In this document: one piece after another, positions 1 through 24,400 of the stretch
Layout of the letters: each line of letters begins with the position of its first letter
Position numbering within the stretch: the first letter of the stretch is position 1
Virus record (IMG/VR): IMGVR_UViG_3300025168_013630
Span: 1 to 47,351 of that record
Source: a virus
DNA length: 47,351 nucleotides
Strand: one strand, 5' to 3'
The notes under the pieces: model-generated
Database searches by the model: none
Seen by the model: the letters and a program-made list of their open reading frames with translations, nothing else
Told to the model about the DNA's origin: nothing
Translations under genes and position numbers: made by a program

Positions 1-1645
1 CTTCAGTTAGTTTGCCTTCATTTTGTAGATTATATCTTACATCTTCTAACCAATCAGACACATCAAATTCTCCATAGTCTTTAACAAATGTTCCTGGATT
101 TTTTCTTGCAATTTTCTCCATAGATTTGAGGTAGTCTTTAACATATCCTTTATCTAGTTTTCTACCACCTAATGTTTTCATTAAAGCATTGATAGCGTTT
201 GTCAAAGTTTGTTTTGCAGTTGTTTCATTTAATTTGCCTTCGAATATAAATGAGTGAGTACCGCCTCCTGAACTGTTAACGCTCCAGCCTTTGTGTTTTA
301 TTTTGATTGAAGGTTCAAGTTTATTTAAAGATTTAATTACATCTTTTGGATTTACTTTATATCCATAAAATACAGTTATACCTTTTTTATTAAACTTTGT
401 TATCTTAGGCTTAGTATTACCTGAATAATCTATTGAAAGCTGGTAGTTTACATCTTTCTTATTAAGTGTAGCTGTAGCTTCAGTTAAGCCATCCTTCTTC
501 ATTTCTTTCTGTAAACTGAATATAGCTTGATGTAATGAATCTACCTTTTTCTTTAACTTCATGTCCTTGTTAGTCAACGTTTTTATTCCCATTGAATGTC
601 TAAAGTTGAACATCGCATCGTTTATTTCTTTGAATGCCTTTGAAGTATAACCTTTATATTTTGCAGCTTTAGCGTTGTCATTATGTAATGTAGTCCAGCT
701 TATGTTTGCTTCATTTACTGATTCTGAATATAGATCTTTACCTTTATGTTTACCTTTATATTTTACTGAAGATACTAGAATTGGATGAAAACTTTTAGGG
801 TTTGAATCAAATTTAACGTATGCTACTTGACCTTTAACCTTGTTTACAATACCGATTTCTCCCATTGATTCCACGTGATCGCCCTTTTTAAGTTTGGCTT
901 CATTTACTACACTTTCTTTCAATCCTTTAATAGCTTTTTTAACATCTTTATTGAATTGCTTTAGATGTTTATCAGCTGATTTTATATAGCTATAGTATTC
1001 TTTGTCTTTTACTACATTGTTTTTACCAGGTTCACCAGCATCTTGTACAAGTTCTATTGCAGCAAATAATGGATCTACTAAGTCATCATACTTATCATCA
1101 TTATCAACGTTCCAATCTTCCCAAGCTTGTGAAAGCTTATATAATTTATCTTCACCATCTTTAACAGATGCCTTTAGAGATTGCTGAAATAGTTTAGCTA
1201 ATTTTCTATCCTTGGCTTCAGTTAATTTGCCTTCTTTTACGCATTTGTCTTTACCATTTTTTGTACCTGCATATCTGTATCCTTTCCAGCAAGCTTTGCC
1301 ATCTGCACCTTTGATTTTCTCCATCTGCAATTCAGCATCTGCATATAATCCTCCGATAGCCTTGTCTAGATCTGATTCTAATTTTTTCTTGGCTTTCGTG
1401 AGCAAAAGTGCAGATTTCTTATACTTTTCAGTATCCTTTTCATTGCCTGAGTCTTTTGCCTTTTTGTATAAAACAAGATTCTTCTTTAACGCATCTATTG
1501 CTTTTAACAAGTCGTTTTTAACTTTATCTACGCTAGCCTCTGTTAGAGAATCATATTCTTCTCCAATTATTGCTAGTAAAGCAACCTCGTCTTCAGAAAG
1601 CTTTTTGATTTCTTCCATCACAATTTTATTTAATTTTGTCGTCAT
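1..1645 (-). CDS. Lysine-rich virion polyprotein-like protein (3' end beyond window)
   Basis: I translated this frame by hand. It runs open for 548 codons from ATG at 1645 (AAGGAG about 10 bases upstream) to the left edge. The protein is Lys/Glu-rich and mostly helical-looking, without membrane segments. A short motif recurs: LTE/A after residues 36, 143 and 389, LNE/T after 474, VNE/A after 249 and 312, and LTE again at 548 on the edge. The motifs cut the chain into pieces of 36, 107, 106, 63, 77, 85 and 74 residues with unrelated sequences. Piece 37-143 ends in a two-Cys segment (C119, C135); piece 250-312 looks like a small beta-barrel. The LTE sites match the L/I-x-E rule of T4 prohead protease gp21. 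I infer internal-head or scaffold precursor material cut during maturation. A fibre-type modular protein is the alternative. Confidence 0.7.
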   Translation of the reverse strand, partial: MTTKLNKIVMEEIKKLSEDEVALLAIIGEEYDSLTEASVDKVKNDLLKAIDALKKNLVLYKKAKDSGNEKDTEKYKKSALLLTKAKKKLESDLDKAIGGLYADAELQMEKIKGADGKACWKGYRYAGTKNGKDKCVKEGKLTEAKDRKLAKLFQQSLKASVKDGEDKLYKLSQAWEDWNVDNDDKYDDLVDPLFAAIELVQDAGEPGKNNVVKDKEYYSYIKSADKHLKQFNKDVKKAIKGLKESVVNEAKLKKGDHVESMGEIGIVNKVKGQVAYVKFDSNPKSFHPILVSSVKYKGKHKGKDLYSESVNEANISWTTLHNDNAKAAKYKGYTSKAFKEINDAMFNFRHSMGIKTLTNKDMKLKKKVDSLHQAIFSLQKEMKKDGLTEATATLNKKDVNYQLSIDYSGNTKPKITKFNKKGITVFYGYKVNPKDVIKSLNKLEPSIKIKHKGWSVNSSGGGTHSFIFEGKLNETTAKQTLTNAINALMKTLGGRKLDKGYVKDYLKSMEKIARKNPGTFVKDYGEFDVSDWLEDVRYNLQNEGKLTE

Positions 1646-1928: not shown

Positions 1929-2180
1929 TTACTTCTTGTTTTTATTAAACTTATAACCTTCTGTTAACAATGTTTCTGCAGATTTTATAGCTTCTGAGTG
2001 TGAGTTAAAAGGGCCTGAAGCTTTATTCTTTCCATGATATACAAACACTTCTACTTTTCCAGATATTGTTTGTATCTCTCCGTTATTTAGTCTTCGTTTT
2101 TTTGGCATATCTATTTTCTGCCTTATGTCTAAATAACCTATTTTGAATAGATAACTTCCGTATTTTTCTTTTTTCCCCAT
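1929..2180 (-). CDS. Hypothetical basic protein, 83 aa (or 59 aa)
   Basis: A basic protein with no recognised family. The C-terminal half (KVEVFVYHGKNKASGPFNSH, then a short helix and a Lys-rich tail) looks like a small beta-beta-alpha unit. The start is uncertain. The ATG at 2180 has no ribosome-binding site and sits directly under an ATATATTTATATA box (about 2185-2197), which would put a transcript start almost on the ATG. The internal ATG at 2108, giving MPKKRR, is a reasonable alternative that would leave a normal leader. Confidence 0.45.
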   Translation of the reverse strand: MGKKEKYGSYLFKIGYLDIRQKIDMPKKRRLNNGEIQTISGKVEVFVYHGKNKASGPFNSHSEAIKSAETLLTEGYKFNKNKK

Positions 2181-2353: not shown

Positions 2354-2599
2354 TTAGTTTGTTCTTACTTTTAGTTTTTGTATTTGAGTCAAGAACTGTT
2401 CAACAGTCAGTTCCTTGCCTTTATCTGTTTTTATTCTTACATCAGGTAGTATCTCGGGTTTTTTGTCTACTATCTTCATCAGCACCTTAAGTCCACTTCC
2501 AGCCCAAAACACACCAAAGCCTGTATTTTCACCTAATTCGTTTGATTCGAACATTGCAGATTCATCTGTGTCACCTGGTAGCATTACAAAGTATTTCAT
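2354..2599 (-). CDS. Hypothetical 81-aa protein
   Basis: Not recognised. The sequence begins MKYFVMLPGDTDESAMFESN and includes a Gly/Phe-rich turn (GENTGFGVFWAGSGLK) followed by a C-terminal helix. It may be a small phage accessory or virion protein. Its ATG overlaps the stop of the GDP-mannose dehydratase gene by 4 bases, so it is translated with the sugar operon although it shows no sugar-enzyme motif. Confidence 0.5.
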   Translation of the reverse strand: MKYFVMLPGDTDESAMFESNELGENTGFGVFWAGSGLKVLMKIVDKKPEILPDVRIKTDKGKELTVEQFLTQIQKLKVRTN

Positions 2600-3573: not shown

Positions 3574-4508
3574 TTTCTTATATCCTTATAGTTTTCTACG
3601 AACCATGAAACTGTCTCCTGTATTCCATCTTCTATAGACTTAAATTCATAATTGGGCAAGTATTTTCTTAGTTTAGAATTATCACTTGGCTTTCTATATT
3701 GACCATCAGGTTTTTCTTTTTCAAATAAAATTCTATCTTCGTAGCCAAACTCTCTTGCTATTAACTCAGCAACATACTTTATTGATACTTCTTTTGAGTT
3801 TGAAAATATAATAGGCTCTTGTTCTTCATAGTTTTCAAGTGCCCACACCGCCAGCTTTGCAACGTCGCTAGAATGTATAAACTCTCTTAATGGTTTACCT
3901 GTACCCCATATTCTAAAATCTTCATTTTTCTGCTTTGCTAAATAACATTTATGTATTAGAGATGGTATTACGTGGCCGTTTTTAAGATCAAAGTTGTCGC
4001 CTGGTCCATATATGTTTGTAGGTATTACTGAGATGTATTCTAGGCCATATTGTTCTTTATAAGATCTTAGCTGAATATCTACCATTCTCTTTGAATAAGC
4101 GTATGAATAGTTAGAGTCATGAGGTTCACCTAAGTGTATTTTCTTTTCAGTCAATGGATATTCAACATCATCAGGGAATATGCAAGTTGACAAAAAGCAT
4201 ACAAGTTTTTTTACATTGTTTACTCTACATGATTCAATTATATTAGTGTTCATCATTATATTTTCATAATAAAACTGACCTTTATAATTCATGTTGCCTC
4301 CTATACCACCTACTTTAGCAGCTGTATGTATTACGTATTTTGGATTGATATCGTTAAATAACTTTCTTGTATTTTCTGAGTTTACAAGGTTGTATTCGTG
4401 TGATTTAAAACGTGAGCATTCACCTGCCCATTTTGTTCTAACCTCTTTCCAAATAGCGTCTCCAACCAATCCCCATCCACCTGTAATTAAAAGATCTTTA
4501 TTGTTCAT
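3570..4508 (-). CDS. fcl: GDP-L-fucose synthase (epimerase/reductase)
   Basis: It would turn GDP-4-keto-6-deoxymannose into GDP-L-fucose by 3,5-epimerisation and NADPH reduction. Visible features: an N-terminal Rossmann motif TGGWGLVG, FLSTCIFPDD with the family Cys, YAYSKRM (YxxxK) near residue 137, and PTNIYGPGDNFDLKNGHVIP, which is the signature of this enzyme family. At 312 aa it is the normal length. It is the first gene of a leftward pair with gmd, with a strong copy of the 25-bp promoter motif 22 bases upstream of its ATG. Together the pair gives a complete two-step GDP-fucose pathway from GDP-mannose. Confidence 0.93.
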   Translation of the reverse strand: MNNKDLLITGGWGLVGDAIWKEVRTKWAGECSRFKSHEYNLVNSENTRKLFNDINPKYVIHTAAKVGGIGGNMNYKGQFYYENIMMNTNIIESCRVNNVKKLVCFLSTCIFPDDVEYPLTEKKIHLGEPHDSNYSYAYSKRMVDIQLRSYKEQYGLEYISVIPTNIYGPGDNFDLKNGHVIPSLIHKCYLAKQKNEDFRIWGTGKPLREFIHSSDVAKLAVWALENYEEQEPIIFSNSKEVSIKYVAELIAREFGYEDRILFEKEKPDGQYRKPSDNSKLRKYLPNYEFKSIEDGIQETVSWFVENYKDIRK

Positions 4509-4529
4509 ACTTTTTTATATCCATGTATC

Positions 4530-4554
4530 TAATATAACAAATTATTCCGATATA
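4530..4554 (-). promoter_or_regulatory. CGGAA-class promoter motif before fcl-gmd
   Basis: The coding strand reads TATATCGGAA, 6 bases, GTTATATTA. It lies in the 54-bp gap between the formyltransferase stop and the fcl ATG. This is one of ten copies in the window, all in front of leftward genes. Confidence 0.65.
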
Positions 4555-4562
4555 ATAAAATT

Positions 4563-5195
4563 TTATGAATTATATATTTTTATTATATACTTAATGCCGT
4601 CTTTATAAAAAAACGCAGGGTATCTATTATTATCGACTACTCTTAGTAAATTAAAGTTTTCTTCTATACTTTTATTTATATCTAGTTCGCTAGAATCTAA
4701 ACCTCTTCTTTCATAATATGTACTTTCAGAATCTTCCTGTGGCTTTCCAATCATAGGCCAATTAGATATGTAAGCAACAGCCATGTCAACAGTCTTCACT
4801 CCTTGAAGATGCTTTATTTCTTCATTAAGCTCTTTTCCTTGTAATTCAATATAGTCAACAATATACACATCACCAGAATCAACTTTAGATGTGGCCTCGA
4901 AAAGACTTACGGGTATCCAATTTTTGTTTTCTAGTATCTGCCATGCAACTGGAGACCAACCTCTTCCTTTTGGAAGCCGGGAAGGATGTATTACTATATT
5001 ATTTTTACATATATCTAATTGCTTTTGAGTTATAATCTTTTCGCAAGAAAGAAGAAACAACACATCAGATTCTTCTACATCTTCTATATCATACACATGA
5101 GAAACAGTGTGACTTTTAGAAAGCTTATCATGTATTGTTTTAGCGTACGGTAGTACCCAACTTTTCTTATTGTCTGTAAGTATTGTTACGATCAT
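4563..5195 (-). CDS. Sugar-nucleotide N-formyltransferase
   Basis: Predicted to transfer a formyl group from N10-formyl-tetrahydrofolate to an amino group on a nucleotide sugar. The diagnostic block NIVIHPSRLPKGRGWSP near residues 66-82 contains the family Asn/His, and VDSGDVY supplies the conserved Asp. The C-terminal part INKSIEENFNLLRVVDNN resembles the ending of sugar formyltransferases such as the perosamine and Qui3N/Fuc3N formyltransferases. At 210 aa it lacks the extra C-terminal domain of methionyl-tRNA formyltransferase, which argues against a tRNA substrate. It is overlapped by an aminotransferase gene that would make the amino sugar it needs. Confidence 0.8.
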   Translation of the reverse strand: MIVTILTDNKKSWVLPYAKTIHDKLSKSHTVSHVYDIEDVEESDVLFLLSCEKIITQKQLDICKNNIVIHPSRLPKGRGWSPVAWQILENKNWIPVSLFEATSKVDSGDVYIVDYIELQGKELNEEIKHLQGVKTVDMAVAYISNWPMIGKPQEDSESTYYERRGLDSSELDINKSIEENFNLLRVVDNNRYPAFFYKDGIKYIIKIYNS

Positions 5196-5818
5196 CCGAT
5201 TGTCTCATTATCTTTGAATACAGTGAACTCCGTCAGATCTCTATAACCATTTACTTCCTGCAAGTCTTCTTTATGTTCAGGGTAATTTTGCATCATAGCT
5301 AGACCTTGTGCTGCTTGTTGAGGGGTCATATACATATTCCAACCTAAGAATGTTATATCATCTTCTTTATAGTATTTTTCACTTCTACCCTCATATCTAG
5401 CTTTTTTAAACCATTCATATGCTTCCTTGTTGTCACATAGTATAGCTCCACCTTTCCATATAGGTAATTGTTTTTTAATATGAAATGACAAGCACATATA
5501 AGAATCTTTTATATACATGTTTGTAGTAAGTCTTTTAGCAGCATCATATACAGGATAAGGTTTTAATTGATAGATACCTTTCCAATGATTTGTTTTAGGT
5601 GTTTTATCAAATATAACTTCCCCACCTGCGTGAATGATAGATTGTGGTACAGAAAGATATGTTTGTGATGGTATAGTAACACTACCAACTTGTAGATATT
5701 TGCACACTAAAAATAAAGCATTGGTACAACTATCAACTGAAACTACATACTTAGCTCCAGTGTAGTACTCTAGTTCTTCTTCGAACATTCTAACTATTTT
5801 GTATGGGTTATTTTTCAT
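5192..5818 (-). CDS. Short DegT/DnrJ/EryC1-type PLP aminotransferase
   Basis: Sugar aminotransferase fold. The N-terminal part (YTGAKYVVSVDSCTNALFL, then the TIPSQTYLSVPQ segment) is the typical DegT cofactor region. SFHIKKQLPIWKGGAI carries the PLP-binding lysine and following Gly-Gly. The protein stops at 208 residues, whereas family members have about 370, so the whole C-terminal domain that completes the dimer active site is missing, with no frameshift visible in the neighbouring sequence. It may act as a heterodimer with the 314-aa paralogue at 6890-7834, or be a reduced viral form. Start and stop overlap both neighbours. Confidence 0.75.
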   Translation of the reverse strand: MKNNPYKIVRMFEEELEYYTGAKYVVSVDSCTNALFLVCKYLQVGSVTIPSQTYLSVPQSIIHAGGEVIFDKTPKTNHWKGIYQLKPYPVYDAAKRLTTNMYIKDSYMCLSFHIKKQLPIWKGGAILCDNKEAYEWFKKARYEGRSEKYYKEDDITFLGWNMYMTPQQAAQGLAMMQNYPEHKEDLQEVNGYRDLTEFTVFKDNETIG

Positions 5819-6495
5819 ATATTCTTCTCCATGTACTCTTTCATTAGTAGCTCCCTGTCATTCATGTGATCTACCTCTTTCCAAGCTGAATTATTATCAG
5901 TTGAATATGATGTGTCTTTATACGTACCAAATAGTTTAGGTGAGCTAAATAAAGTACTTCCTGATGATCTCAGTTGAGAACAAAGTGCAATCTCCCAGTG
6001 GTGGAATTCATCATAATCGGTATTGAAAAATGACAAATTTAACGATGTGATTTGATCTCTATTGAATATCATCAATCTACCTTTTATCAAATCTACTTCA
6101 CCACTTGGATTTGATAGTGTACTGGAGAACAATTCAGCATCTCTACCAATAACTATATCGCCATACTTAGATTCTAATTCTCGTATAATATCGTACGTAT
6201 CCTGAATGGCGGTGTCTGATGGGACGAGATCATCATCCATCTTTATTATATACCTACTAAATGAAAACATCATCATTGCAACTGCTGCGCCGCACCTGAA
6301 GTTTGTTGACGTGTTAATAACTACATCAGCATTTTCGTCTGCATACACTATATCTGGGTTATTATTCCAAACAACTACATTACATCCCATTTCTTGAGAC
6401 TTAAGTATTTTGGTATTCATTCTTACTTGATCCTCACGCTGCCAATTCATCATCACGTATGTAATTTCATGATCAAATTTATTTGTTATATTCAA
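5815..6495 (-). CDS. GT-A fold glycosyltransferase
   Basis: A 226-aa inverting or retaining glycosyltransferase of the GT-A class. The N-terminal strand YVMMNWQRED, the segment VVVWNNNPD and the metal-binding IIKMDDDLVPSD (DxD, about residue 83) are visible, with a later acceptor-side region containing DEFHHWEIAL. The VWNNNPD segment resembles exostosin/GT64-like enzymes, but I cannot fix the family. It sits between the ketoisomerase and short aminotransferase genes with 4-base overlaps, so it may transfer the amino sugar made here onto phage or host glycan. Confidence 0.75.
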   Translation of the reverse strand: MNITNKFDHEITYVMMNWQREDQVRMNTKILKSQEMGCNVVVWNNNPDIVYADENADVVINTSTNFRCGAAVAMMMFSFSRYIIKMDDDLVPSDTAIQDTYDIIRELESKYGDIVIGRDAELFSSTLSNPSGEVDLIKGRLMIFNRDQITSLNLSFFNTDYDEFHHWEIALCSQLRSSGSTLFSSPKLFGTYKDTSYSTDNNSAWKEVDHMNDRELLMKEYMEKNI

Positions 6496-6875
6496 TTGTT
6501 TACTCCATTTGTTGATGTGAATTTGTTATAGTCTACAATATAGTCATCAACATTATATTCTGTAGAGCACATCACTAATAATTTAGAGTCATCTGTTTTG
6601 TATACCTGTTTATCCCAAACCATATTAGGTATGTGTACAGAATCTCCTTTTTCAAGCTGTATAACACTTTGTTTTCCGTCTTTAGTCGTTAAGTACATAT
6701 CGATCTTTCCTTCTAAACATATTGCAAATTGCTCTGTTACATGGTGAGCGTGGCCGCCTCTTTCTGTCTGCTCCGAATGTACGTCTGCTATGAATATCCT
6801 TTTACATTCAAACGTAAGATCTTTAAGATCAAATGGTATTAGTGTACCTCTACTGTCGCTATAACACTGTGGCAT
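6492..6875 (-). CDS. FdtA/WxcM-type sugar 3,4-ketoisomerase (cupin)
   Basis: A single-domain cupin of the FdtA/WxcM family, which moves the keto group of a nucleotide-4-keto-6-deoxysugar from C4 to C3 before 3-amination. RGTLIPFD, then ERGGHAHHVTEQFAICLEG with the catalytic His residues, and the C-terminal YIVDYNKF match the family well. At 127 aa it has normal length. In known pathways the product goes to a DegT aminotransferase (FdtB/QdtB) and sometimes a formyltransferase, exactly the neighbours found here. The substrate may be GDP- or dTDP-linked; only GDP-sugar dehydratase (gmd) is encoded in this window. Confidence 0.82.
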   Translation of the reverse strand: MPQCYSDSRGTLIPFDLKDLTFECKRIFIADVHSEQTERGGHAHHVTEQFAICLEGKIDMYLTTKDGKQSVIQLEKGDSVHIPNMVWDKQVYKTDDSKLLVMCSTEYNVDDYIVDYNKFTSTNGVNN

Positions 6876-6889
6876 ATTTTCTTACTCCT

Positions 6890-7834
6890 TTATAAAGATG
6901 GGAGAGTTCCCTCTATTACTCTATTTATTTCTTCGTCGCTTAGTTTTTCATGAAAAGGTATACTTAATACTCTACCAGCAGCTGCATCCGATTTAGGTAG
7001 TGAGTTATGAGTATATCCAAATTCAAATTTTTCTCTTGCATATGTAGCGTGTTTATGCAGACATTCATAGTGTATACCTGACGCTATATTTAATTCTCTA
7101 AGTGCTGCGGATTTTTCTGATGCAGTACTATCTATAATAGGCACTCTATATAGATGATTGCTTGTATTGCTTAGACCAAATTCGGAATTATATATCTTTC
7201 TAATTCTATTTAAGTTTGCTAGCTTGCTTTCATATTTTTTAAAATTCTCATTTGCAACGTAAGCCTGTACTGAATTTAGATACATTTTATACCCTGGGAA
7301 TTTTATTTTTCTTTCCCAGTTATCTGTTGCGAATGACATTCCATTTAAAGTTGCTTCTCTAAACCAATTGATTTTTTCTTCATCGTTGCTTACAACCATG
7401 CCTCCATCAATACTACCTATTGGCTTTGTGGGATAAAAACTAAATATCATTATATCACTATCATTTGCTTCATTTTTATACTGGTCTTTCTCAATTTTTT
7501 GAGCAGAATCAATTATCTTGTAGTCACCAAAGTCGTGTAATGTATAAGAATCACCTACCCATTCAGTATCATCGATAAAATTTATACTGTTGCCTGAAGT
7601 TAAAAGTGCATTAGGTACTACAGCTGGTATCATACTTGGTATGTTAACAGTCACATCTTTATTCAGCATTGATAAGAATATAGCATTTGTTGCGCTATTA
7701 ACACCACAAGCGTATTTTGCTCCAACATAATCTGCAATAGTATTTTCAAATTTTGTAACGCACTCATCGTGTAGTATGTGACTAAATTTTTTCATATCTA
7801 TATTATAGTTTTCTATGTTAAACAGCTTTATCAT
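6890..7834 (-). CDS. DegT/DnrJ/EryC1-type PLP sugar aminotransferase
   Basis: A 314-aa PLP enzyme predicted to aminate a keto-sugar nucleotide using glutamate. DYVGAKYACGVNSATNAIFL forms the cofactor-phosphate region, MIFSFYPTKPIGSIDGG carries the Schiff-base lysine, and the C-terminal domain is present (HYECLHKHATY, LPKSDAAAGRVLSIPFHEKL). It is compact for the family (usually near 370) but complete, unlike the short paralogue at 5192-5818. An SD-like AAAGGAG lies in the 14-base gap to the ketoisomerase gene downstream, and its own start overlaps the upstream glycosyltransferase by 17 bases. Confidence 0.85.
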   Translation of the reverse strand: MIKLFNIENYNIDMKKFSHILHDECVTKFENTIADYVGAKYACGVNSATNAIFLSMLNKDVTVNIPSMIPAVVPNALLTSGNSINFIDDTEWVGDSYTLHDFGDYKIIDSAQKIEKDQYKNEANDSDIMIFSFYPTKPIGSIDGGMVVSNDEEKINWFREATLNGMSFATDNWERKIKFPGYKMYLNSVQAYVANENFKKYESKLANLNRIRKIYNSEFGLSNTSNHLYRVPIIDSTASEKSAALRELNIASGIHYECLHKHATYAREKFEFGYTHNSLPKSDAAAGRVLSIPFHEKLSDEEINRVIEGTLPSL

Positions 7835-8711
7835 GATACCTTTTTAGTTGATTTTTAAAATTGCTTTTTAATTCCTTAATGTCTCGTTGAATAGCTTCAG
7901 GGTGCTCCGCTGTAAATTTGTCAGTAAAACATTCGCCTCTTATATGTTGCTTGAACTCATGTACGCCTAGGAATTCGTTTTCGACCTCTTCACGCCTACC
8001 ATTTACCCAAGGAAGCCATACCTTATTAAAATAATCATCAATACAATTTTGTTTGCTAACGCTATCTTTATAATAACTTACTTTTTTATATACCTGGTCT
8101 GGGAATGTGTATGAGTAGTGATACATTTGTATGCCTGCTTTCTCCCAAAGAAGATTACTATTGATGTGTATCTTATTTTTATTAAATTCAGAACCTTCTA
8201 TGTATTTTATTGTAGGAGGCCTATGCGTTAACCACGTAGCGCCTTTTTCGTATCTAAAGATTCTTAAGAAATTATCTCTATTAAGCTCAAAGCCTGTAAG
8301 ATAGTTATCGAACCCTCCAAAAAATGAGCAGCTTCTAACGCCTACGCTTGTAGGTTTTTCAACATCAAGTATCTTTATCATCTTCTCTATATCTTTGGAC
8401 TTATAAACCTCATCAGAATCTAGATTCCATATATAATCTATGTCATCATTTATGTGTTCCATATATGCTTTACATTGGTCGTCTTTCTCTGAATACTGTC
8501 CATGTACGACTACTATCTTATTTTCAGGATCTGGAAATTCTGATAATATCTTGTTTGTATTGTCTAGAGATGTTGTTCTACCTTGCCTTTGCCAATATGA
8601 TACTGGGCCTTCTGCAATTAAAATCTGTTCTGCGTATGGATATACTTGTTCTAAGCATTGCTTTAAAACATAGTCACCTTCAAATACTATCATTCCAAAT
8701 GCTATCTTCAT
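7818..8711 (-). CDS. GT2-like glycosyltransferase
   Basis: A 297-aa GT-A enzyme. The N-terminus MKIAFGMIVFEGDYVLKQCL and EQILIAEGP are the nucleotide-sugar side, and IWNLDSDEVY near residue 95 holds the DxD metal motif followed by Glu. The remainder (FLRIFRYEKGATWLTHRPP, a Tyr/His-rich stretch) resembles the acceptor region of viral and bacterial GT2/GT92-like proteins. It begins 4 bases inside the preceding 71-aa gene and leads into the aminotransferase gene, so it belongs to the sugar operon. The donor and acceptor cannot be read from sequence. Confidence 0.75.
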   Translation of the reverse strand: MKIAFGMIVFEGDYVLKQCLEQVYPYAEQILIAEGPVSYWQRQGRTTSLDNTNKILSEFPDPENKIVVVHGQYSEKDDQCKAYMEHINDDIDYIWNLDSDEVYKSKDIEKMIKILDVEKPTSVGVRSCSFFGGFDNYLTGFELNRDNFLRIFRYEKGATWLTHRPPTIKYIEGSEFNKNKIHINSNLLWEKAGIQMYHYSYTFPDQVYKKVSYYKDSVSKQNCIDDYFNKVWLPWVNGRREEVENEFLGVHEFKQHIRGECFTDKFTAEHPEAIQRDIKELKSNFKNQLKRYHDKAV

Positions 8712-8923
8712 TTTACATCACTCTCGCTAAATACTTCTATCATTAAAACATTTTTATCGTTAATCATCACGTAACTTCCATCTAAAAGTTCGAACTTTGT
8801 AAATTGGCCTTGTTTTACAGTCTTTGTAATTATACCTTCTATAGTTCGTTTTTCCCCTGTTATAAAATGTATAATCTGAGTTACAGTCTTACCTTTTATT
8901 TTTATTGCTGATTCTAAATCCAT
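8708..8923 (-). CDS. Small beta-barrel-like protein, 71 aa
   Basis: Not recognised. After a short helix the sequence alternates strands (KTVTQIIHFITGEKRTIEGI, GQFTKFELLDGSYVMIND, NVLMIEVF), a pattern like Sm/Hfq or SH3 barrels with a Gly-Asp-like turn before the last strands. An AAGGTTA-type ribosome-binding site lies before the ATG. It is sandwiched between two glycosyltransferase genes, overlapping the downstream one by 4 bases. Function unknown. Confidence 0.5.
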   Translation of the reverse strand: MDLESAIKIKGKTVTQIIHFITGEKRTIEGIITKTVKQGQFTKFELLDGSYVMINDKNVLMIEVFSESDVK

Positions 8924-8925
8924 TG

Positions 8926-11394
8926 TTAACCTTCTATTTCTTTTATGTGATTGTAATAATTTTCGTATATCAAATTTAAGTTTTTGTTTTCTTTATACAT
9001 TTCTTCTGGTGTATAGCAGTGATGCATAGTAGATGGATCGTAACCTGTCTCATTTATCTTGAATTTTGAAAAGTGAGTGAATACTAAAGGCTGCTCGTTT
9101 CCTTCCCATATTATATTGCCATTAGATAGAATATCATACATCTGCCACTGCCAAGGAGCTCCATGTCCGATGTTTTCGTCTATGTATATATTTTTGCATA
9201 TTTCAGGGAAATAATCTAGATACTTCTGGTCTCCACAGGTAGCAAGCATAGGATACTTTTTGTTCATCACAGCATCTGTCCACCAAGAAAGAGTTTCTTT
9301 ACCTTTAGCAGTATTTTTAAAGTGTACTACCCCAACATTAAAATATCCTTCAGGTTTAGGATTATCTAAAGGAAACTGTCTATGTCTAAATATACCAACA
9401 TCTCTATTGCCGATTTCTTCAAATACAATGTCTATATTTTTATGAAAGTATATATCGCTGTCTATATATGTAATACTTTCAAAACCATTTATTAGTTTTT
9501 CTGAAAAATATGATGCAAGAGCAAAACAAAAATAGCTATAGTCACTATTTTTTAATTTTAATAATTTGTTGTCGTTTTTGATTAAATCATCTATATGATA
9601 TACCTTGATGTTTTTTTCTATTTTTGACAACTTTTCATAAGTAGTGTTATCTAAGCATAGATAGTGTAATGTAAAGTCTTTTGAAGTTGCTAGTAAAGAT
9701 TCATAAAGAGCTATACCTTGAGAAAGATAGTTTTTATCAGATATCGTACACATGTTTTTTGTTCTATTAAAATAGTCTGTGTATTGCTGGTAGTTTTCTA
9801 AGCCTATTATTTCTTTATAGGTGTTGAACACCTTAGATTCTTCTTGCCATTTTTCTTTTTCAGTTTTAGCATTTGTTGACAAGCCAGTAGGATTGTGATA
9901 ATATATTCCATACACACCTTCTATCTTTTCAAACACAGATCCATTTCTTACAAACCTAAGCCACATCTCCCAATCACCTGCCATCGAATATGACTCATCA
10001 AACATTTCTTGTAAGTTTTTATGACAACTTGATCTCCATACTGGCATACACCCTGGTAAACATTTTATCATATTTTCATTGGCAAAATTCATAGTCGACG
10101 TAACTCTTCCCTGAGCTGTATTTTCATAGTAGTCTTCAAAATCTCTGCCTGTTATGTAGCATTCGCTGTATGCTAGGTCTATATTTTTATTTTCTTCTAA
10201 AAATCTTACGTGGTGTTCGATATGAGTGTGAGCTCTTCTGTCATCTAAGTTTGCATTTGTAATATATTTACCTTTTGACAATTTAATTGCTTTATTCCAA
10301 CAACCATATATTCCCGGATCCTCTTCGATCTTATCATATATTATATTGCTATATTCTTTTTTATATTCTAAGATAGTCTTGCACGGAGGTCCTGGTGTTG
10401 GATCAACAATTATAAGCTCACATGAATCAAATGCTGTCTGCTTTGTTATATTTTCTAGAAAAGGCTTTATGTGATCATCTCCTTTAAATTTCGAAGTTAT
10501 GATCGAAATCAAAGGTAATTGGCGTTTATATAACTTTGGTTCACTAATAAAGTTGTCTATAAAGCTCTCTTTCGATGCTCTAATGAAGTCTATCAATTCC
10601 TTACCTTTCAGTCTAGAAAACCACTCTTCTGATGTACAACCATTCCGATTATCAGTTACAACCTTGCAGTTAAGCATCCTTGCTTCTACTAAAAATCTAT
10701 TGAATGTTTCCAACACACCTGGTAAAATTAAAACCTTTTCGTATTTACCTAGAATGTGCATCAGATCTTCATACTGAGAAGGGCCTATCAAATCATATTT
10801 TATATTTTTGCTTTCACAATACTCTATACATAAATTTGTATTTTTTATTGGATTGTTAGAATTAAGTATTGCAGTTTTAGTTATCTTCTTTTTCGTATTT
10901 ACACCTTCGATTATATCAAGGTGGCTGTCTGACCAAATACTTGTAGATAGATTTACAACATTAGAAAGTCCTATGTTTTTACTAACTATGTCGCTATGAA
11001 GTTTAGATTGACAGTATACGTATTTTGCATTTTTATAAAAATCTCTATTGATTATCTTGTCAGGAGATACTGCATAGCCTTTATACATTGTTACGTCACG
11101 CTGCTGGACATATTTGTGATCATGTTCTATTATAGAATATGTATGTCTAGGTAATTTTTCTAACTCGATCTGTTTGGAATTTTTCAAAATAAAAACAATT
11201 TTAGGAGGTAGTTGTACAAAATTTGCAATAAGGATTTCTCCTTCTAGATCCCAAGCTTGAACATCCTTACACTTTATTTTACGTACAGTATATCCTTTTG
11301 ATTCCAAGCCGAGAATAATCTCTTCATTAACCAGCTCCCCTCCACCGAATACTTCATCGACAAAAAAGTCTGCTATAAACTTTATTTCTTTCAT
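8926..11394 (-). CDS. Three-domain glycosyltransferase fusion (GT4-like, GT2, GT8-like)
   Basis: An 822-aa protein made of three transferase modules. Residues 1 to about 290 look like a GT-B/GT4 domain (FVDEVFGGGELVNEE at the start, VLILPGVLETFNRFLVEARM near the end with the E-x7-E pattern). About 293-550 is a GT2 domain beginning LPLISIITSKFKGDD, with NLDDRRAH as its DxD-like site. About 555-815 is GT8-like (TISDKNYLSQGIALYESLL, YIDSDIYFHK near 645, then GYFNVGVVHFK and a late GHGAPWQW). Such fusions build short oligosaccharides in one protein. There is no membrane anchor. It starts 3 bases below the hypothetical gene upstream. Confidence 0.85.
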   Translation of the reverse strand: MKEIKFIADFFVDEVFGGGELVNEEIILGLESKGYTVRKIKCKDVQAWDLEGEILIANFVQLPPKIVFILKNSKQIELEKLPRHTYSIIEHDHKYVQQRDVTMYKGYAVSPDKIINRDFYKNAKYVYCQSKLHSDIVSKNIGLSNVVNLSTSIWSDSHLDIIEGVNTKKKITKTAILNSNNPIKNTNLCIEYCESKNIKYDLIGPSQYEDLMHILGKYEKVLILPGVLETFNRFLVEARMLNCKVVTDNRNGCTSEEWFSRLKGKELIDFIRASKESFIDNFISEPKLYKRQLPLISIITSKFKGDDHIKPFLENITKQTAFDSCELIIVDPTPGPPCKTILEYKKEYSNIIYDKIEEDPGIYGCWNKAIKLSKGKYITNANLDDRRAHTHIEHHVRFLEENKNIDLAYSECYITGRDFEDYYENTAQGRVTSTMNFANENMIKCLPGCMPVWRSSCHKNLQEMFDESYSMAGDWEMWLRFVRNGSVFEKIEGVYGIYYHNPTGLSTNAKTEKEKWQEESKVFNTYKEIIGLENYQQYTDYFNRTKNMCTISDKNYLSQGIALYESLLATSKDFTLHYLCLDNTTYEKLSKIEKNIKVYHIDDLIKNDNKLLKLKNSDYSYFCFALASYFSEKLINGFESITYIDSDIYFHKNIDIVFEEIGNRDVGIFRHRQFPLDNPKPEGYFNVGVVHFKNTAKGKETLSWWTDAVMNKKYPMLATCGDQKYLDYFPEICKNIYIDENIGHGAPWQWQMYDILSNGNIIWEGNEQPLVFTHFSKFKINETGYDPSTMHHCYTPEEMYKENKNLNLIYENYYNHIKEIEG

Positions 11395-12335: not shown

Positions 12336-13593
12336 AAGTCTGTAGCTCCGTTAATTCTTTAGTTTTAGTTTCAAAGCCAGGAGATGAAAGTACTGAATTC
12401 ATAATATCCTGAAATTGATTTTTCATTATCTCTAATGAGAAATTTTCTTTTATATATTGAGTTTGTTTTCTTGATTTTTCTAGATATTTCTTATAGTTTT
12501 TATGTACATCTGCCATTATATTTGAAGCGTATGCATAATCAACAGTAAACCATTGTGATTCTTTTACAATTACATTTTCCCAAACAACCGATTGATGTAC
12601 AGGATTGAGCTTACCTGGAAGCATTACTCCGTATGCAGACATAAAATCTATGTGGCCTGACCAATTAGATACCAAGACAGGCTTTCCTGTATTTGAAAAT
12701 TCTAATAAAGGTCTACCAAATCCCTCACCTTTCGTAAACGATACCATTGCTTTTATTTTTGGATGGTTATATAAACCGTTCATTTCTTCGATAGATAAAC
12801 CTCCGTGTAGTAAATATATTTTAGGTAGCTTTTTATCTCTACCTAACTGAGATTTTATTGCATCTATTCTATTAAGAACTTGTTGTCTATCTTCTACTGA
12901 AAATGTAGCTTGAGATGTTTTTATTACCAATGCTGGCATATTCTTTTCAGATTTGTTTTTGAAAGTATCAAGAAAAGTTTTTAAAGTTTGAGCAATATCT
13001 TTTCTATCTTCACCTTGCGCACCGTTAAGCCAGTGGCCACATACCAAGAAGCAAAAATCTTCTTTTATATTATCAAGAGTGTTTTTTATACTAGCAGGAA
13101 TTTCTTTTGATTTCCCAAATACTTCAAGATCCAAGCCTTCAAAAAGAACTTCAACGTCTGTAGTTAATGACAGCTTGTCTACAACGTTTTCTGTACCTTC
13201 TTGTTTTTTATCATAACTCGATGCTTTAAATACATATTTCGAATGTTCAGAAGGCACGATTACTTTATCCATTCTATTACATCCTTCTAACCATGTAGGT
13301 GATGTAAGTGTTGTTTCAATTCCAGCTGTTATACCTATATTGTATCTACCTACTGGGTTAAATTCGTTAGGCACAGTTATCTGAATCCATATATCAGGCT
13401 GTTCTGATAATCCTTGCACCATCAAGTGTTTTAAATCATCACCTTCTGTTTGAGGACATGCTCCCCACATCTGATCTACGATTTTGATTGTAAATCTGTC
13501 CATCTTAATTAAACTTTTAATAAGATCTCTTGAGTGATCTCCATATCCAGATCTTGATGTTGCTGGACAACTAATTGCTAATACTGGCTTCAT
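12328..13593 (-). CDS. GT4-family (GT-B) glycosyltransferase
   Basis: A 421-aa GT-B enzyme. The N-terminal domain begins VLAISCPATSRSGYGDHSRD, typical of the acceptor domain with the SGYG loop. The C-terminal domain has IYLLHGGLSIEEMNGLYNHP and the E-x7-E donor-binding motif in FTKGEGFGRPLLEFSNTGKP, so it is probably retaining. No transmembrane segment is seen, so it would work in the cytoplasm on nucleotide sugars. Its ATG overlaps the stop of the second GT4 gene by 4 bases, and the pair likely acts one after the other. Confidence 0.85.
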   Translation of the reverse strand: MKPVLAISCPATSRSGYGDHSRDLIKSLIKMDRFTIKIVDQMWGACPQTEGDDLKHLMVQGLSEQPDIWIQITVPNEFNPVGRYNIGITAGIETTLTSPTWLEGCNRMDKVIVPSEHSKYVFKASSYDKKQEGTENVVDKLSLTTDVEVLFEGLDLEVFGKSKEIPASIKNTLDNIKEDFCFLVCGHWLNGAQGEDRKDIAQTLKTFLDTFKNKSEKNMPALVIKTSQATFSVEDRQQVLNRIDAIKSQLGRDKKLPKIYLLHGGLSIEEMNGLYNHPKIKAMVSFTKGEGFGRPLLEFSNTGKPVLVSNWSGHIDFMSAYGVMLPGKLNPVHQSVVWENVIVKESQWFTVDYAYASNIMADVHKNYKKYLEKSRKQTQYIKENFSLEIMKNQFQDIMNSVLSSPGFETKTKELTELQTYE

Positions 13594-14993
13594 AATAATA
13601 CTCCTGATGTATATACAGGCTTCGGTGAGCTTGTATCAATAAGTTCATAATTCTTTCTTGGCTTGAACGTAGCTAAGCATACATCAATTCCGTTTATCAT
13701 TTCTTGACACATACCTACTTGAGTAAATCCGTTTTCAATAGACCATTTCCGTCCTGATAAACCTCTCTTAGTTCTTTCTTCACCTCCTAATTTGTACCAA
13801 TACTTCATACCGTCTGCTATATCTGCAATTGTTGGTCTACTATCGTAAATATATGGAGTTGGTGGTGATCCTTGTAAACTTGGATTCGGCCACAAAGGAT
13901 ATACCCATTCTCCATGTTCTTCAGATATTAACTTTGTACTATTACTAGGCTTTTCTTCTGTAAAGTCAGTAACATTTATATCTCTGCCTTTTATCTTGAA
14001 TCCCATTTGATCTTGTAGACCTCCTACGACTGTAGCTATAGTTGGCTTACCAGCCATTAACGCTTCCATATGAGATAATCCAAAGCCTTCTGCTGAAGAT
14101 GGCTGCAATACTACATCAGACATATTGTACAGGTAGTTTAAAGCAGTTGCTGGTACTTTGTTATTGCTAAATATAACATTTCGCTTAGGTGTAATTATTT
14201 TAGCAACCGCAGGTAGATCAGTACCATTTTCATCAATAGGATCTGTGTGAAGTAAAAGTGCAATTTTGCTTGTCTCTTCAGGTGGCATATCTTTTGTAAA
14301 TAATGCGTAAGCACTTAATATATCTGATATACCTTTCCTTCTTATATTTCTACTGTTGAAAAATAAAACATAATCAAATTGCTTTCCTTTAAATACATCG
14401 CTTTTGAATTTTGTAAATTCTTCAGATTCTGAATCAACTGGTGTGAATTGGTTTTCATTTATTCCATGAGGTACATAAAATAAATCTTTACCTTCTATAC
14501 GAGGCTTTCTTTTACAAACATGCTTGTTTATATTATATGTCTGCTTTGAAATTGCCATAAGAGCATCGCAAGATTCATATGCGTTTTCATTCCAATGTGG
14601 GAATGGAAGATCGTCCCATATATTATAATACATAATAGGAACTTCCTGTCTAATTTCATGTTCCATTTGGTATAACCATCCCCAGAATCTTGGATCTGTA
14701 AAGTGCATGATTGCATCTGGTTTTTCCACTTTAATTACATGACGTAGTGTTTGTTGATCACCATAACCATTTACAGGGTATAGTTTTAAGCTTGCATCTT
14801 CTACTCCAGTAAATTTCTTTACTTCTTCGCTTAAGTCAGCAATCTTTCCGATTTCTGGGTGTTGTATTGCACCAGCCATCTGTACCCAATCATATTTGTG
14901 CATTGTACCCATCACAAATGAATTTGACATTGTTCCTATACCTGAATGGATTCTTAGATCATCTGATAATAGTAGTATTTTCTTTTTTGCCAT
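13590..14993 (-). CDS. GT4-family (GT-B) glycosyltransferase
   Basis: A 467-aa GT-B enzyme. KKILLLSDDLRIHSGIGTMS forms the first Rossmann loop, LFFNSRNIRRKGISDILSAY the linker to the donor domain, and VVLQPSSAEGFGLSHMEALM carries the E-x7-E pair, followed by GKPTIATVVGG. It is only distantly similar to its neighbour at 12328-13593, so not a recent duplication. An AAAGGTT-type ribosome-binding site precedes the ATG, inside the C-terminal codons of the overlapping RHH gene. It is the first glycosyltransferase of the surface-sugar block in transcription order. Confidence 0.87.
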   Translation of the reverse strand: MAKKKILLLSDDLRIHSGIGTMSNSFVMGTMHKYDWVQMAGAIQHPEIGKIADLSEEVKKFTGVEDASLKLYPVNGYGDQQTLRHVIKVEKPDAIMHFTDPRFWGWLYQMEHEIRQEVPIMYYNIWDDLPFPHWNENAYESCDALMAISKQTYNINKHVCKRKPRIEGKDLFYVPHGINENQFTPVDSESEEFTKFKSDVFKGKQFDYVLFFNSRNIRRKGISDILSAYALFTKDMPPEETSKIALLLHTDPIDENGTDLPAVAKIITPKRNVIFSNNKVPATALNYLYNMSDVVLQPSSAEGFGLSHMEALMAGKPTIATVVGGLQDQMGFKIKGRDINVTDFTEEKPSNSTKLISEEHGEWVYPLWPNPSLQGSPPTPYIYDSRPTIADIADGMKYWYKLGGEERTKRGLSGRKWSIENGFTQVGMCQEMINGIDVCLATFKPRKNYELIDTSSPKPVYTSGVLL

Positions 14994-15207: not shown

Positions 15208-15615
15208 TTATGAGATAATTACGATCTTTTTTTTCATTTTTTTTGCCTCGTTTATAGTGTTTGTTGTTCCACTCGCTGCGCCGTCTTGAGGTATGAATGC
15301 AATTATACAATCAACATAGTTGGCTAGCATTTTATTTCTATGGAAGAAATTCTTAGGCTGATACATTTTTCCATAGTAGTTTTCGTGCAATGCAGAATAA
15401 AGATTCTTAGGTGTGTGTGCAGGGTTAAACTCCATATATGTGCAACCTAATTCTATTGCAAACTTTTTTGCAAATCTATCTGCACCGTCCAGACAGCCTC
15501 CTGAAACTATTACGAGGTCGTCTTTGAATTTATTCTTAAGTTTAAAGACTGTGTCTTTAACTTTTCTAAAATTCTGATATTCTCTGCTTCCTACAATTCC
15601 TATCTTCATAGACAA
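15208..15615 (-). CDS. SLOG-fold protein, YspA/DUF2493-like
   Basis: A 135-aa Rossmann-like protein of the SLOG superfamily (relatives of DprA and YspA), thought to bind nucleotides or nucleotide-derived ligands. Motifs visible: KIGIVGSREYQNF at the N-terminus, VIVSGGCLDGADRFAKKFA (the GG-x-GAD loop) and FFHRNKMLANYVDCIIAFI, then GAASGTTNTINEAKK near the end. This is the whole single domain. The first 8 bases of the coding sequence lie inside the cysteine synthase gene. In bacteria SLOG proteins often sense signals in defence or stress systems; the role in a phage is unknown. Confidence 0.75.
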   Translation of the reverse strand: MSMKIGIVGSREYQNFRKVKDTVFKLKNKFKDDLVIVSGGCLDGADRFAKKFAIELGCTYMEFNPAHTPKNLYSALHENYYGKMYQPKNFFHRNKMLANYVDCIIAFIPQDGAASGTTNTINEAKKMKKKIVIIS

Positions 15616-16499
15616 CTCAAATATCTTTCTCCTCTATCGCAAAGGATTGTTATTACATTTTTAGCATTATTATCTCGCATCCATTCGAATGAAGCTTTTA
15701 CATTTGCTCCTGCTGATATCCCAATAAATAAGCCATGCCTCAAAGCCATGTGTCTTGCTATTTTTTTAGCACACACTGTATGAACTGTCCGGACTTCTTC
15801 TATTCTATTCATTTCGACTAAGAATTTGCTTCCGTCTCCTATTCCCTGTATACCATGTAAACCTGGTTCGTATCCACTCATGACTGCACTTTCTTCTGGC
15901 TCAACAGCTATCAGCTTCATACCTGGAAACTTAGTTTGCAAATATCTTCCAGCTCCCATAATAGTTCCACCTGTACCTGTTCCTGCAATAAATGCTTCTG
16001 GCCAGATATGTTCTTCTGAATTATGCTTTCTAAATTGACTGTTTATTTCTGGCCCTGTGTTTTTATAGTGAGCTTCGATATTTAATGAGTTGTGGAATTG
16101 ATTGCAATTGAAATATCCTAATTTTTCAGACATTTCATCTCTTACTCTTATCGCTTCATCAAAATCACCTGCATCGACTTCTACTAACCTTGCACCATAA
16201 AACTTTAACATCTGCTTTCTTTCATCAGACATGTTTGATGGCATAACTATATAGATCTTATAACCTCTTTCTGCTGCTAACATTGCAAATGAAATACCAG
16301 TATTGCCTGATGTTGCTTCGACTAGTGTGTCTCCTCGCTTTATCAAACCTTTTCTTTCTGCATTATCAATTATGTATGTTGCCATCCTATCTTTAACACT
16401 GCCACCTGGATTCATGAATTCACACTTGCCCCATACAGTTAAGCCTGCAAACTCAATTGGTATAAGAGGTGTATTTCCTACATAGCTTGATAGTCTCAT
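15606..16499 (-). CDS. cysM: Cysteine synthase (O-acetylserine sulfhydrylase, CysM-like)
   Basis: A PLP enzyme that makes cysteine from O-acetylserine and sulfide or thiosulfate. The N-terminus YVGNTPLIPI is followed by NPGGSVKDRMA, in which K36 is the Schiff-base lysine. EATSGNTGISFA is the substrate loop, GTGTGGTIMGAGRYL binds the cofactor phosphate, and GISAGAN lies near the end. At 297 aa it has normal CysM length and no missing key residue, so it is probably active. It is a metabolic gene rarely reported in phages. It overlaps the PD-(D/E)XK nuclease gene by 4 bases and the SLOG gene by 10, which ties the three together. Confidence 0.92.
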   Translation of the reverse strand: MRLSSYVGNTPLIPIEFAGLTVWGKCEFMNPGGSVKDRMATYIIDNAERKGLIKRGDTLVEATSGNTGISFAMLAAERGYKIYIVMPSNMSDERKQMLKFYGARLVEVDAGDFDEAIRVRDEMSEKLGYFNCNQFHNSLNIEAHYKNTGPEINSQFRKHNSEEHIWPEAFIAGTGTGGTIMGAGRYLQTKFPGMKLIAVEPEESAVMSGYEPGLHGIQGIGDGSKFLVEMNRIEEVRTVHTVCAKKIARHMALRHGLFIGISAGANVKASFEWMRDNNAKNVITILCDRGERYLSCL

Positions 16500-17929: not shown

Positions 17930-19825
<1,896 letters not shown>

Positions 19826-19826
<1 letters not shown>

Positions 19827-21406: not shown

Positions 21407-24400
21407 TTATATCAGCTTTTTTATTGAAGAATTTTTAGATTTTGTAAATCCAAATTTATTCTTAGATGAAGGAATACATACGAATTCACCTTCCTTTAAG
21501 TCTGCTATATCTCTTGTATTAAAGATTGTTATATATAATTGCTTGACGTCATCTTCTAATGCTATTTTGTAGAATTCACGTCCTGTCTTTTTAGATTTCT
21601 TAATGATTATTTTATTTATAATACCATAAAGTTGAAACTGACCTTTTTCTAAACCATCAGGTATATCTTTAGGACTAGTGAGCTGAGTAATGATATCGGG
21701 TGCGTGATCATAGAAAAATGATTTATATTTTGTAAACGGGTGTTCATTAAAATAAAAATCGAAGTATTTCTTTTCCCATTCAAACTTCTGTGTCTTGTCC
21801 CAATCCTTTTCACCTATATTGTCATCTAATATCTGCTGTATAATACCATCTATAGTTTGAGCTTTTTTCTTGTTTCTACAAGCTGATATGATTTCTTCTA
21901 ATATCCTAGAATTGTCAAAGATATTTTTGAAATAACCTAATCTACATAAAGGTTCATATGTACGCTTTGTAATTTTATTACCAAGTATAAATTCTATAAG
22001 CTGAGGTATTGTGTTAACATCCTTAGCTGTGTTGATAATTGCAGCGTCTTTATCTGGAACACCTTTTACAAGATTGAGTCCAAATTTAATAGTATTCTTG
22101 TCGTAGTCAATTTCAAACCTGTCGCCTGTTTGGCCTAATTCGAATTCATTAAACTTTATATTCTTATTCTTTATCTGTTTTATAAACCAACTTAATTCGT
22201 CGTTTGTAGAATGATTAAGAAGAGAAGCATAGTATTCTCTAGGGAAGTGTACCTTTTGCCACATAGATATATAAGCATTCATAGCGTATGCTAGAGAGTG
22301 AGACTTGTTAAATGAGTATTCTGAGTATTTACCTAGAACATCAAGTAGCTCATCAATATCTCTGTCCTTCATACCTTTTGCTCTAGCTCCTTTTTTGAAT
22401 CTATCAAGCATATCATAGAAATTTCCTTTTTTAGCTTGGTTTCCTTTATGAAGGAGTTTTAATATCTTTCTACCACCATCTGCTTCAGCTAATGTAAATC
22501 CGCCTATCTGCTGCAGGATAAACATAATCTGTTCTTGAAATATAGGTACACCTAATGATTCACCTAGTATATCCCAAAGAATTGGTGATTTTTCGTCTAG
22601 AAGCTTTTTTGCTGCTTCTGGATTTTGCTTGTTTTTGAGATATTCATCAATTCCTCCGGCCTGGATTATGGCAGGGCGGAACATAGCATTGATAGACGAT
22701 AAGTCAATTATGTTTTTAGGCTTGATTGTCCTAATTAAATTGATCATATTGTCTGAGCCGAATTGAAAGATGTCTTTACAGTTACCAGTTTCGAACTCAT
22801 CATATACCTTTTTGTCATCAAAGTCAGATTTAAGAATGCGTTGCTCAAGTCCAAAAAGCTTGTGCTCTTTTTCAATGAGTTTGAAGGTGTCGTTAATTAC
22901 AGACGCTGCTTTTAATCCTAGTATGTCTAGCTTACAATAACCAAGATCACTTACTTCACGTTCGTCTCCACCTTCCTGTACGCCTGTAACGACCTCACCT
23001 TTAAGTCTTAAAAGTGGTATCTCTGAACAGCTAAGATCTTTATTACTTACCAATATACCAGAAGCATGACGGCCAGTTTGTCTTACCATACCTACCATCT
23101 TAGGTGCTACTTTCAAGAACAGTTCTTTGTTATCCTTGATAAAAGCCATAAGGTCTTTTTCACCTTTTTTCTGTGCTATATTAAATGCGTTTTTAATTTC
23201 AAGCTCGATAGGTGAGTTAGGATCTTCGCCAAAATAACCTGTAAGTTTATTTGATAATACAAAGTCTAGCTCATGTATTCTACATAAATCTTTTACTGTA
23301 GTTTTAGCACCGAACTTGCCAAAGTTTGCAATGTGACACACTCGTTCAGTGCCGAACTTTTCCTTTAGATAACCTTCACATAACTTTTGAGTGTCTGAAT
23401 CAATGTCTAAATCCACATCGGCAGGATCAATTCTAGCGGGGTTTAAGAACCTTTCGAAAATTAGATTATGTCTAATCGGATCGATCTTTGTAATATCTAG
23501 TACAAATAAAACAAGAGAACCACCTGCTGAACCTCTACCTGCACCTGTTGCACCACCTACTTTATATACAAAGTTGTTTAACAGATCATCTAAAATAAGG
23601 AAGTAGTCAATAAATCCTTTTGATTTTATAATATCTAATTCATACTTAAGTCGATCTGTATATTCTTTGTTATTGTCAGGTAGTAAACCATTGCCTATTT
23701 TCTCTACCCATTTAGCTTTAAGCTTTTGCATAAATTCAGATTCACTTTGTGATTTATCTTCATGATACTTAGGGAAGTTGTCTGGATATTTTGGCATTTC
23801 GATTGCAACTTTATCATTTATTTCAAACGTAGAGTCGATAGATAATTCAAGGAATTTTTTATCTAAACCATACTTATCTGCCTCTGCATAGATTTCATCA
23901 ATCTGTTTTATGTAAAGAGAATGTACGGTATAGAACCAGTCATCGGGTGTATATGATTGTACAGTTTCACGCTGTCTAATTACATAAAGTAGATACTGTA
24001 TATACCAATCGTCTTTGTTTGCGTAGTGATAGTCCAAAGCGAACACAGGTTTTATACCTGTTTTCTCATATACTTTGTGATAGAAATTATTACATTTAGC
24101 TTGTATATCTAGATTATTTAATTGTATTTCAAGGTAAAAATCATCACCAAACTTTTCATGATATTTCTTTATAAGCTTAAGTGCCTCATCCTCTCTACCA
24201 GCTAACACATACTGATTCCACTTAGACTGTAAGCAGCCTGTGGTTATTATGTTGTTATCATTAAGAGTGTTGAATACTTTATCCATGCTTGACAAAGGCT
24301 TTCTATAGAATGTATCAAAGCTTTCATTAGAAACATTAAGGATATTCTTTACACCATCATAATTCTTAGCATAAACTAATGTATGATTGTTTGCAGCAGC

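Follow-up and report, generated by a model that had tools for sequence, protein, structure and literature searches.

A phage gene predicted to encode a modular polyprotein of internal head proteins

Eukaryotic RNA viruses are well known for polyproteins that a viral protease cuts apart, a strategy that is no hallmark of tailed phages. A gene at the end of a 47,351-base virus record (the window, meaning the whole stretch of DNA analysed here), whose source is a T4-like marine phage, raises the question of whether one phage gene could supply several internal head proteins through the same kind of processing.

Seven predicted cleavage sites in a lysine-rich protein

The open reading frame in question (2..1645, minus strand) starts with ATG and meets no stop codon up to the contig end, giving 548 residues with the 3′ end missing. 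It is annotated here as a predicted gp21-processed internal-head polyprotein on the basis of syntenic homologues in L010, L098, L099, L100, and L101. Charged residues are abundant, with lysine making up 18% of the chain. Family searches with the whole protein against Pfam, PHROGs, NCBIfam, and PDB sequences gave only weak matches, none of them useful.

The last residues of the seven [LV][TN]E motifs are 36, 143, 249, 312, 389, 474, and 548, exactly where a sequence-only reading of the window had placed them. With a slash for the predicted cut, and all on the minus strand, they are LTE/A at residues 34–36 (1538..1546), LTE/A at 141–143 (1217..1225), VNE/A at 247–249 (899..907), VNE/A at 310–312 (710..718), LTE/A at 387–389 (479..487), LNE/T at 472–474 (224..232), and LTE/ at 546–548, at the contig end (2..10). 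They divide the chain into units of 36, 107, 106, 63, 77, 85, and 74 residues, the number of units being a lower bound because the reading frame is incomplete. The units are dissimilar to one another, as that reading had held (best off-diagonal E = 0.096 in blastp among units). The T4 head protease gp21 cuts after L/I-x-E (PMC9026906). Five of the seven sites fit this rule, again as claimed; the other two are V-x-E (VNE), with a P3 residue outside the T4 rule, although the capsid site of one relative reads VSE/A. A further proposal, that the first base of the window begins an Ala codon after the last site, held in part: the base is G, which fits Ala, but other codons starting with G fit too.

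The motif [LV][TN]E occurs 7 times in the polyprotein against 0.59 expected, and none of 20,000 composition-preserving shuffles reached 7. The narrower [LV][TN]E[AT] is found six times, compared with once in the remaining window ORFs of 100 aa or more, which total 14,052 residues. In the same shuffling test, strict sites were not enriched in the L098 polyprotein or in the 952-aa L006 protein taken singly.

Module homology and module boundaries

Relatives were gathered by searches with the modules and by a module-independent search with a conserved neighbouring gene of 81 aa (2354..2599, minus strand), through which syntenic polyproteins were found independently of the modules. A second conserved neighbour of 83 aa (1929..2180, minus strand) is a synteny anchor. 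Syntenic or related genes are present in L010 (549 aa), L098 (710), L099 (678), L101 (572), and L100 (cut off), and L006 holds a cluster of three (952, 777, and 652 aa). In these polyproteins, sites resembling E-G-K-L-[TN]-E set apart units of ~45–130 residues. When IMG/VR was scanned with site-coding DNA, further such genes (L108, L115, L117, L118, L124, L130, L135, L136, L138, and L146) came up together with unrelated chance matches, and three other polyproteins used as tblastn queries had almost no matches among cultured phages. Profile searches with 28 module queries, which represent 27 families because L and X are a single one, gave matches in about 70 proteins. At least three of the 27 families occur in each of 16 proteins, in an order that differs between proteins, and most families have several different neighbours.

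Every unit of the window protein was found again elsewhere, in other proteins, other orders, and other contexts. The chain opens with an acidic N-terminal leader or propeptide (residues 1–36; 1538..1645, minus strand; pI 4.4) that ends in DSLTE/A. Module A (residues 37–143; 1217..1537, minus strand; pI 9.5) has two parts, A1, present in 16 proteins, and A2, "DGKACWKGYRYAGTKNGKDKC", present in cyanophages as well. Module B (residues 144–249; 899..1216, minus strand) also occurs in L007, inserted in the protein just before gp21, and module C (residues 250–312; 710..898, minus strand) in L029, inserted in the same pre-gp21 protein. Module D (residues 313–389; 479..709, minus strand) recurs in the L006, L115, and L135 polyproteins. 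Module E (residues 390–474; 224..478, minus strand) exists as a stand-alone 88-aa protein in L098 (12937-13203) that begins MIKLKNILSE/IKLNKKD..., and module F (residues 475–548; 2..223, minus strand) is both the C-terminal module of a head-cluster protein in L028 and a stand-alone 86-aa head-cluster gene in L069 and L079. Module B is modelled as a four-helix domain (pLDDT 89.9, pTM 0.82) in which the site residues fall in the end modelled with less certainty; a fold search against the PDB gave no significant match (best E 1.4, to FAT-domain four-helix bundles). The model of module F is of low confidence (pLDDT 61).

The isoelectric point exceeds 8 for 24 of the 28 module queries; the other window ORFs have a median of 5.95, and the T4 internal proteins without their first 10 residues range from 7.9 to 9.7. 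In the profile searches, family L/X is the last module of nearly all polyproteins that contain it, and for this reason the incomplete window gene probably ends in such a module too. Many homologues terminate in a conserved module, "...MEQEAEPEGG...EQY", whose equivalent would fall outside the window.

For the boundary test, modules were cut at the sites in one source protein and homologues were found by sequence profile alone. Since the scan with site-coding DNA selects for sites, its loci were excluded from the first profile-based statistics. There, outside the source protein, [LIVM]xE stood at 53 of 59 N-ends (17.5 expected) and 38 of 50 C-ends (14.3 expected), counts matched in none of 3000 randomisations, with the expectation taken from random positions of the same proteins. 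The enlarged homologue set had sites at 95/108 N-ends and 73/96 C-ends. Its non-redundant form had them at 73 of 85 N-boundaries and 59 of 76 C-boundaries, where 24.6 and 21.1 were expected; the excess (z about 11 and 10, respectively) is indicative, the copies being partly related by descent. When a small P1′ residue was required as well, 56/85 N- and 44/76 C-boundaries of this set qualified (13.0 and 10.7 expected), and the canonical site was absent from 12/85 and 17/76. None of the control motifs [LIVM]xK, [LIVM]xD, [LIVM]xQ, [KR]xE, and [AG]xE was enriched at module boundaries. The check proposed in the sequence-only reading, whether the motifs are the conserved points among homologues, thus comes out in its favour: sites persist where modules meet, and what lies between the sites is exchanged. 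The first boundary test, based on gapped BLAST ends, gave a weaker signal (42% of ends no more than 3 residues from a site vs. 15%), as did a test on ungapped ends, because alignments bridge or overrun modules; the profile-based test supersedes both. Aligning every module fragment jointly to the full protein gave a misaligned result, which was discarded.

Individual junctions can be read directly from pairs of genes. The L098 and L099 polyprotein genes share blocks that are 95–97% identical and are interrupted by module swaps. With ^ for the block edge, these edges lie at "EEEYESYI^[NT]E", "^EGQLDE", and "^TE[AG]KVT", and a one-sided edge falls directly after "GKLNE"; another, "YEI[KR]KG^D", lies a few residues into the next module, whose start is similar in both genes. 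The head-cluster protein encoded before gp21 has a slot that is without an insert in L016–L028, holds module B in L007 ("QLTE/A...EIGE/AN"), and holds module C in L029 ("KLNE/A...EIDE/AN"). Between the cultured cyanophages S-H9-1 and S-WAM2, an insertion of ~105 aa is bounded by "ELT^E/" and "L^GE/". Judged from such sequence comparisons, the modules are mobile between genes and genomes.

The site-coding sequences are the top direct repeats in the window ORF and in L101, and are among the top ones in L098. In the window the leading repeat family is GAAGGCAAATTAACTGAA (encoding EGKLTE; 1217..1234, with further copies at 224-241 and 2-19, minus strand). Across eight polyprotein genes, the site glycine is encoded by GGC in 10/20 cases vs. 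35/389 elsewhere (p = 8e-6), and the site leucine by TTA in 16/18 vs. 167/400 (p = 9e-5). With this codon bias, the site DNA is more alike than the protein needs, a likeness that points either to copying in the recent past or to a role as recombination handles.

Leaders, head protease and head genes

T4 IPII and IPIII, read from the T4 genome, start MKTYQEFIAE/A. Ten residues suffice for T4 capsid targeting, with residues 4 and 7 of the capsid-targeting sequence (CTS) important for targeting and 8 and 10 for processing (PMC9026906). MIKLKNILSE/ has hydrophobic residues at T4 positions 4, 7, and 8 and E at 10. This leader, MIKLKDILTE/, MARLKDLLNE/, and similar ones precede single modules P, E, and Q, and the core protein encoded after gp21 has a leader too, MKLKKILxE. 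The register is the same in stand-alone and polyprotein copies: module P reads MKLADVISE/KKKGLW when alone and QLDE/KGKGLW within a polyprotein, and a stand-alone MKLKKIIE/ANPDG corresponds to SITE/ANPDG. In L033 and L034 a leader-like "KIKLK[NS]VLE/ANPDG" is found within a head protein, as would be expected had a stand-alone gene been joined to it. The window polyprotein itself starts with MTTKLNKIVME (residues 1–11; 1613..1645, minus strand), which has the hydrophobic-x-x-hydrophobic-hydrophobic-x-E spacing of MKTYQEFIAE in IPII and IPIII and so resembles a T4-type CTS as a sequence feature, by a loose motif. This loose CTS-like motif was found in 35 of 61 module-bearing proteins vs. 158 of 1476 other ORFs (p = 1e-17); many of the 158 are head or stand-alone cluster genes, and some are not (e.g., terminase).

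Leaders of this type also precede recognisable domains. L118 (2228-2932) and L124 (4134-4838) encode a CTS-like leader, MIKLKDILNE/, followed by a zeta-toxin/P-loop kinase domain, in L118 above the Pfam cut-off; the product is a possible head-packaged enzyme. HAD-like proteins ("FDFDDT") with the same leader type are encoded in L006 (936-1454), L118 (8285-8809), and L136 (11742-12278), their HAD-phosphatase-type matches being weak and below threshold. From these stand-alone, leader-bearing genes, some of the cargo may be enzymes that act on the host.

A gp21-type protease, which the sequence-only reading had expected in the genome, is absent from the 47-kb window fragment. In two sister genomes, a Peptidase_S77 gp21 lies on the same contig as a syntenic polyprotein (G002, E 6e-33; G003, E 8e-31) and within a T4-order head cluster; L010 and L028 are one contig, as are L099 and L034, so protease and polyprotein occur together in both genomes. 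The gp21 of this clade scores 115.7 bits in L007 and 109.6 bits in L028 (8001-8633) against Peptidase_S77 (cut-off 27) and belongs to PHROG 207, head maturation protease. A PF03420 search of the L006 contig (G001) did not find the protease, and head genes were not seen on that fragment.

The order in L007, L028, and other loci is terminase, portal, small proteins, gp21, core proteins, a scaffold-like acidic protein, and capsid protein, which resembles T4. Modules B, C, F, M, P, Q, and S lie inside proteins of the head cluster, at distances of up to 0.8 kb before gp21 and up to 2.8 kb after it, a clustering that is indicative only, as these loci were fetched around gp21. Nearly all of 26 capsid protein homologues carry ENQAKQL-I[SDT]E/[AS] near residue 60, and the one in the cultured Flavobacterium phage immuto has VSE/A. 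T4 gp23 reads LTE/A at its known processing position. In immuto (L095), site-rich proteins are encoded at 13579-14661 and 4007-6532, near gp21 and the terminase gene.

Competing explanations and known systems

The sites at module boundaries, the gp21 of relatives, the modules in head-cluster proteins, and the CTS-type leaders support the proposal that one gene could yield several internal head proteins. We place the probability at roughly 80% that the gene encodes a modular, gp21-processed polyprotein of internal head proteins whose site codons double as recombination junctions. By analogy with T4, the N-terminal leader with its T4-type capsid-targeting motif would carry the chain into the prohead core, where a gp21-type serine protease (Peptidase_S77) would cut after the Glu of each L/I/V-x-E during prohead maturation, freeing six or more domains of 60–110 residues within the head. 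Because most are basic, the freed domains would stay with the DNA, and they might enter the next host on infection, as do T4 IPI, IPII, and IPIII. At the DNA level, in-frame exchange at the site codons GAAGGCAAATTAAMTGAAG, of which the junctions are seen and the mechanism is proposed, would renew the module set; modules could be gained, lost, or swapped in frame since any site-flanked module would be released intact at any position.

Might the chain instead remain whole, a multidomain protein working intact in the head or host, with "EGKLNEA" as only a flexible linker into which domains can be inserted? Repeated linker DNA could by itself account for the shuffling, and short E-containing linkers could stay uncut. 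We consider this unlikely. The boundary motif resembles what gp21 recognises, with a hydrophobic residue at P3, Glu at P1, and in many cases a small residue at P1′, and no enrichment was seen for other linker-like motifs. Comparable sites also come before modules in the stand-alone proteins that have CTS-like leaders, and the major capsid protein has one where its processing is expected.

Improbable to much the same degree is a scaffold or core protein like T4 gp22, gp67, and gp68, chopped at L-x-E into functionless fragments that leave the prohead. In T4, core proteins are indeed cut several times, and most of the resulting fragments exit the head (PMC9026906); modules also occur in the core-region genes around gp21. 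The sites nevertheless lie between homologous, separately moving domains and are not scattered; module B is predicted to be compact; modules exist as stand-alone genes with leaders; and most module queries are basic, like T4 IPII and IPIII.

A third alternative is a polyvalent injected protein as understood by Iyer et al. (2017), which would be cut by an embedded peptidase of its own or act whole in the host. Multiple domains, their variability, and plausible delivery with the DNA recall that class (PMC5512222), but Pfam, PHROGs, and NCBIfam searches gave no peptidase, nuclease, or other polyvalent-protein domain, so that an embedded peptidase was rejected, and the processing sites fit gp21 acting in trans; this reading is very improbable. 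The abundance of charged residues suggests chance or a compositional artefact of a lysine/glutamate-rich chain, which the shuffling, boundary, and control-motif tests and the DNA-level junctions reject for the pattern as a whole.

The predicted polyprotein thus compares with several known systems. Like T4 IPI, IPII, and IPIII (and Alt), its products would be small, basic, and fast-evolving, with a 10-residue leader ending in hydrophobic-x-E/ and a gp21-type protease. T4 internal proteins give one mature protein per gene, whereas seven sites and six or more predicted domains lie here in one chain, and the modules move between genes. T4 gp22, gp67, and gp68 receive several gp21 cuts per chain, as predicted here, and the T4 core genes lie beside gp21, but their fragments mostly leave the head, while the pieces here are conserved, separately mobile domains. 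In the giant phages phiKZ, 201phi2-1, and SPN3US, as far as the available passages go, a gp21-like protease cleaves many head proteins after Glu, with several cuts in some of the propeptides, and 13 of 14 SPN3US sites remove N-terminal propeptides (PMC10052503, PMC9026906); unlike here, these passages report neither a multi-product cargo chain nor module swapping.

Polyvalent proteins of phages and plasmids (PMC5512222) and DarA/DdrB of phage P1 are likewise multidomain, variable, and probably delivered with DNA, and some are processed. They typically have an embedded metallopeptidase and recognisable enzyme domains, in contrast to the in-trans processing by the head protease predicted here. 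GC842 proteins of T4-like cyanophages (S-RSM4, S-WAM2, and S-H9-1) have module A2 in common with the window protein and show module insertion between sites, but consist of few units only and are annotated as hypothetical. A literature search for phage polyproteins released by a head protease gave no match, most subscription papers and all bioRxiv preprints lying outside its scope. Against that literature, internal proteins of the T4 type are the established kind, and the novelty lies in the polyprotein architecture and its shuffling.

More tentatively, at somewhat below even odds, such genes may form an evolvable cargo-loading system: polyproteins of small, packaged, probably injected proteins, whose protease-site codons serve as DNA recombination handles, with modules moving in frame among polyproteins, genes of the head core, and stand-alone genes with a CTS to give a fast-changing delivered set. 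If the polyprotein is processed as predicted, the T4-type capsid protease would serve generally to release packaged proteins strung together in one chain, one targeting signal could load many different proteins into the head, and protein processing and module shuffling would be joined at the same codons. The packaged, probably host-acting proteins of uncultured marine phages could then be listed directly from sequence, by taking whatever lies between two L-x-E sites or follows a MIKLKxILxE leader.

Several other genes of the window and its relatives are of interest in their own right. In several relatives a conserved gene, by eye staphylococcal-type nuclease-like, lies just downstream of the polyprotein region (L010 9549-9938, L098 12284-12673, L101 6753-7142, and L011 1806-2195). 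Two genes from the polyprotein, L101 encodes a secreted-looking repeat protein (7425-10880) whose T9SS type A sorting domain (PF18962, TIGR04183) points to Bacteroidota hosts and to a phage protein that would use host type IX secretion; an incomplete gene in L098 (13363-16242) resembles it. The window itself encodes a homologue of bacterial DNA polymerase III alpha with PHP, polymerase, and finger domains, together with a short family-A polymerase match (21407-24754 and 41024-42031), a cysteine-synthase-like PLP enzyme and a UvdE UV-damage endonuclease (15606-16499 and 37901-38917), and a GroEL and GroES pair (17930-19826).
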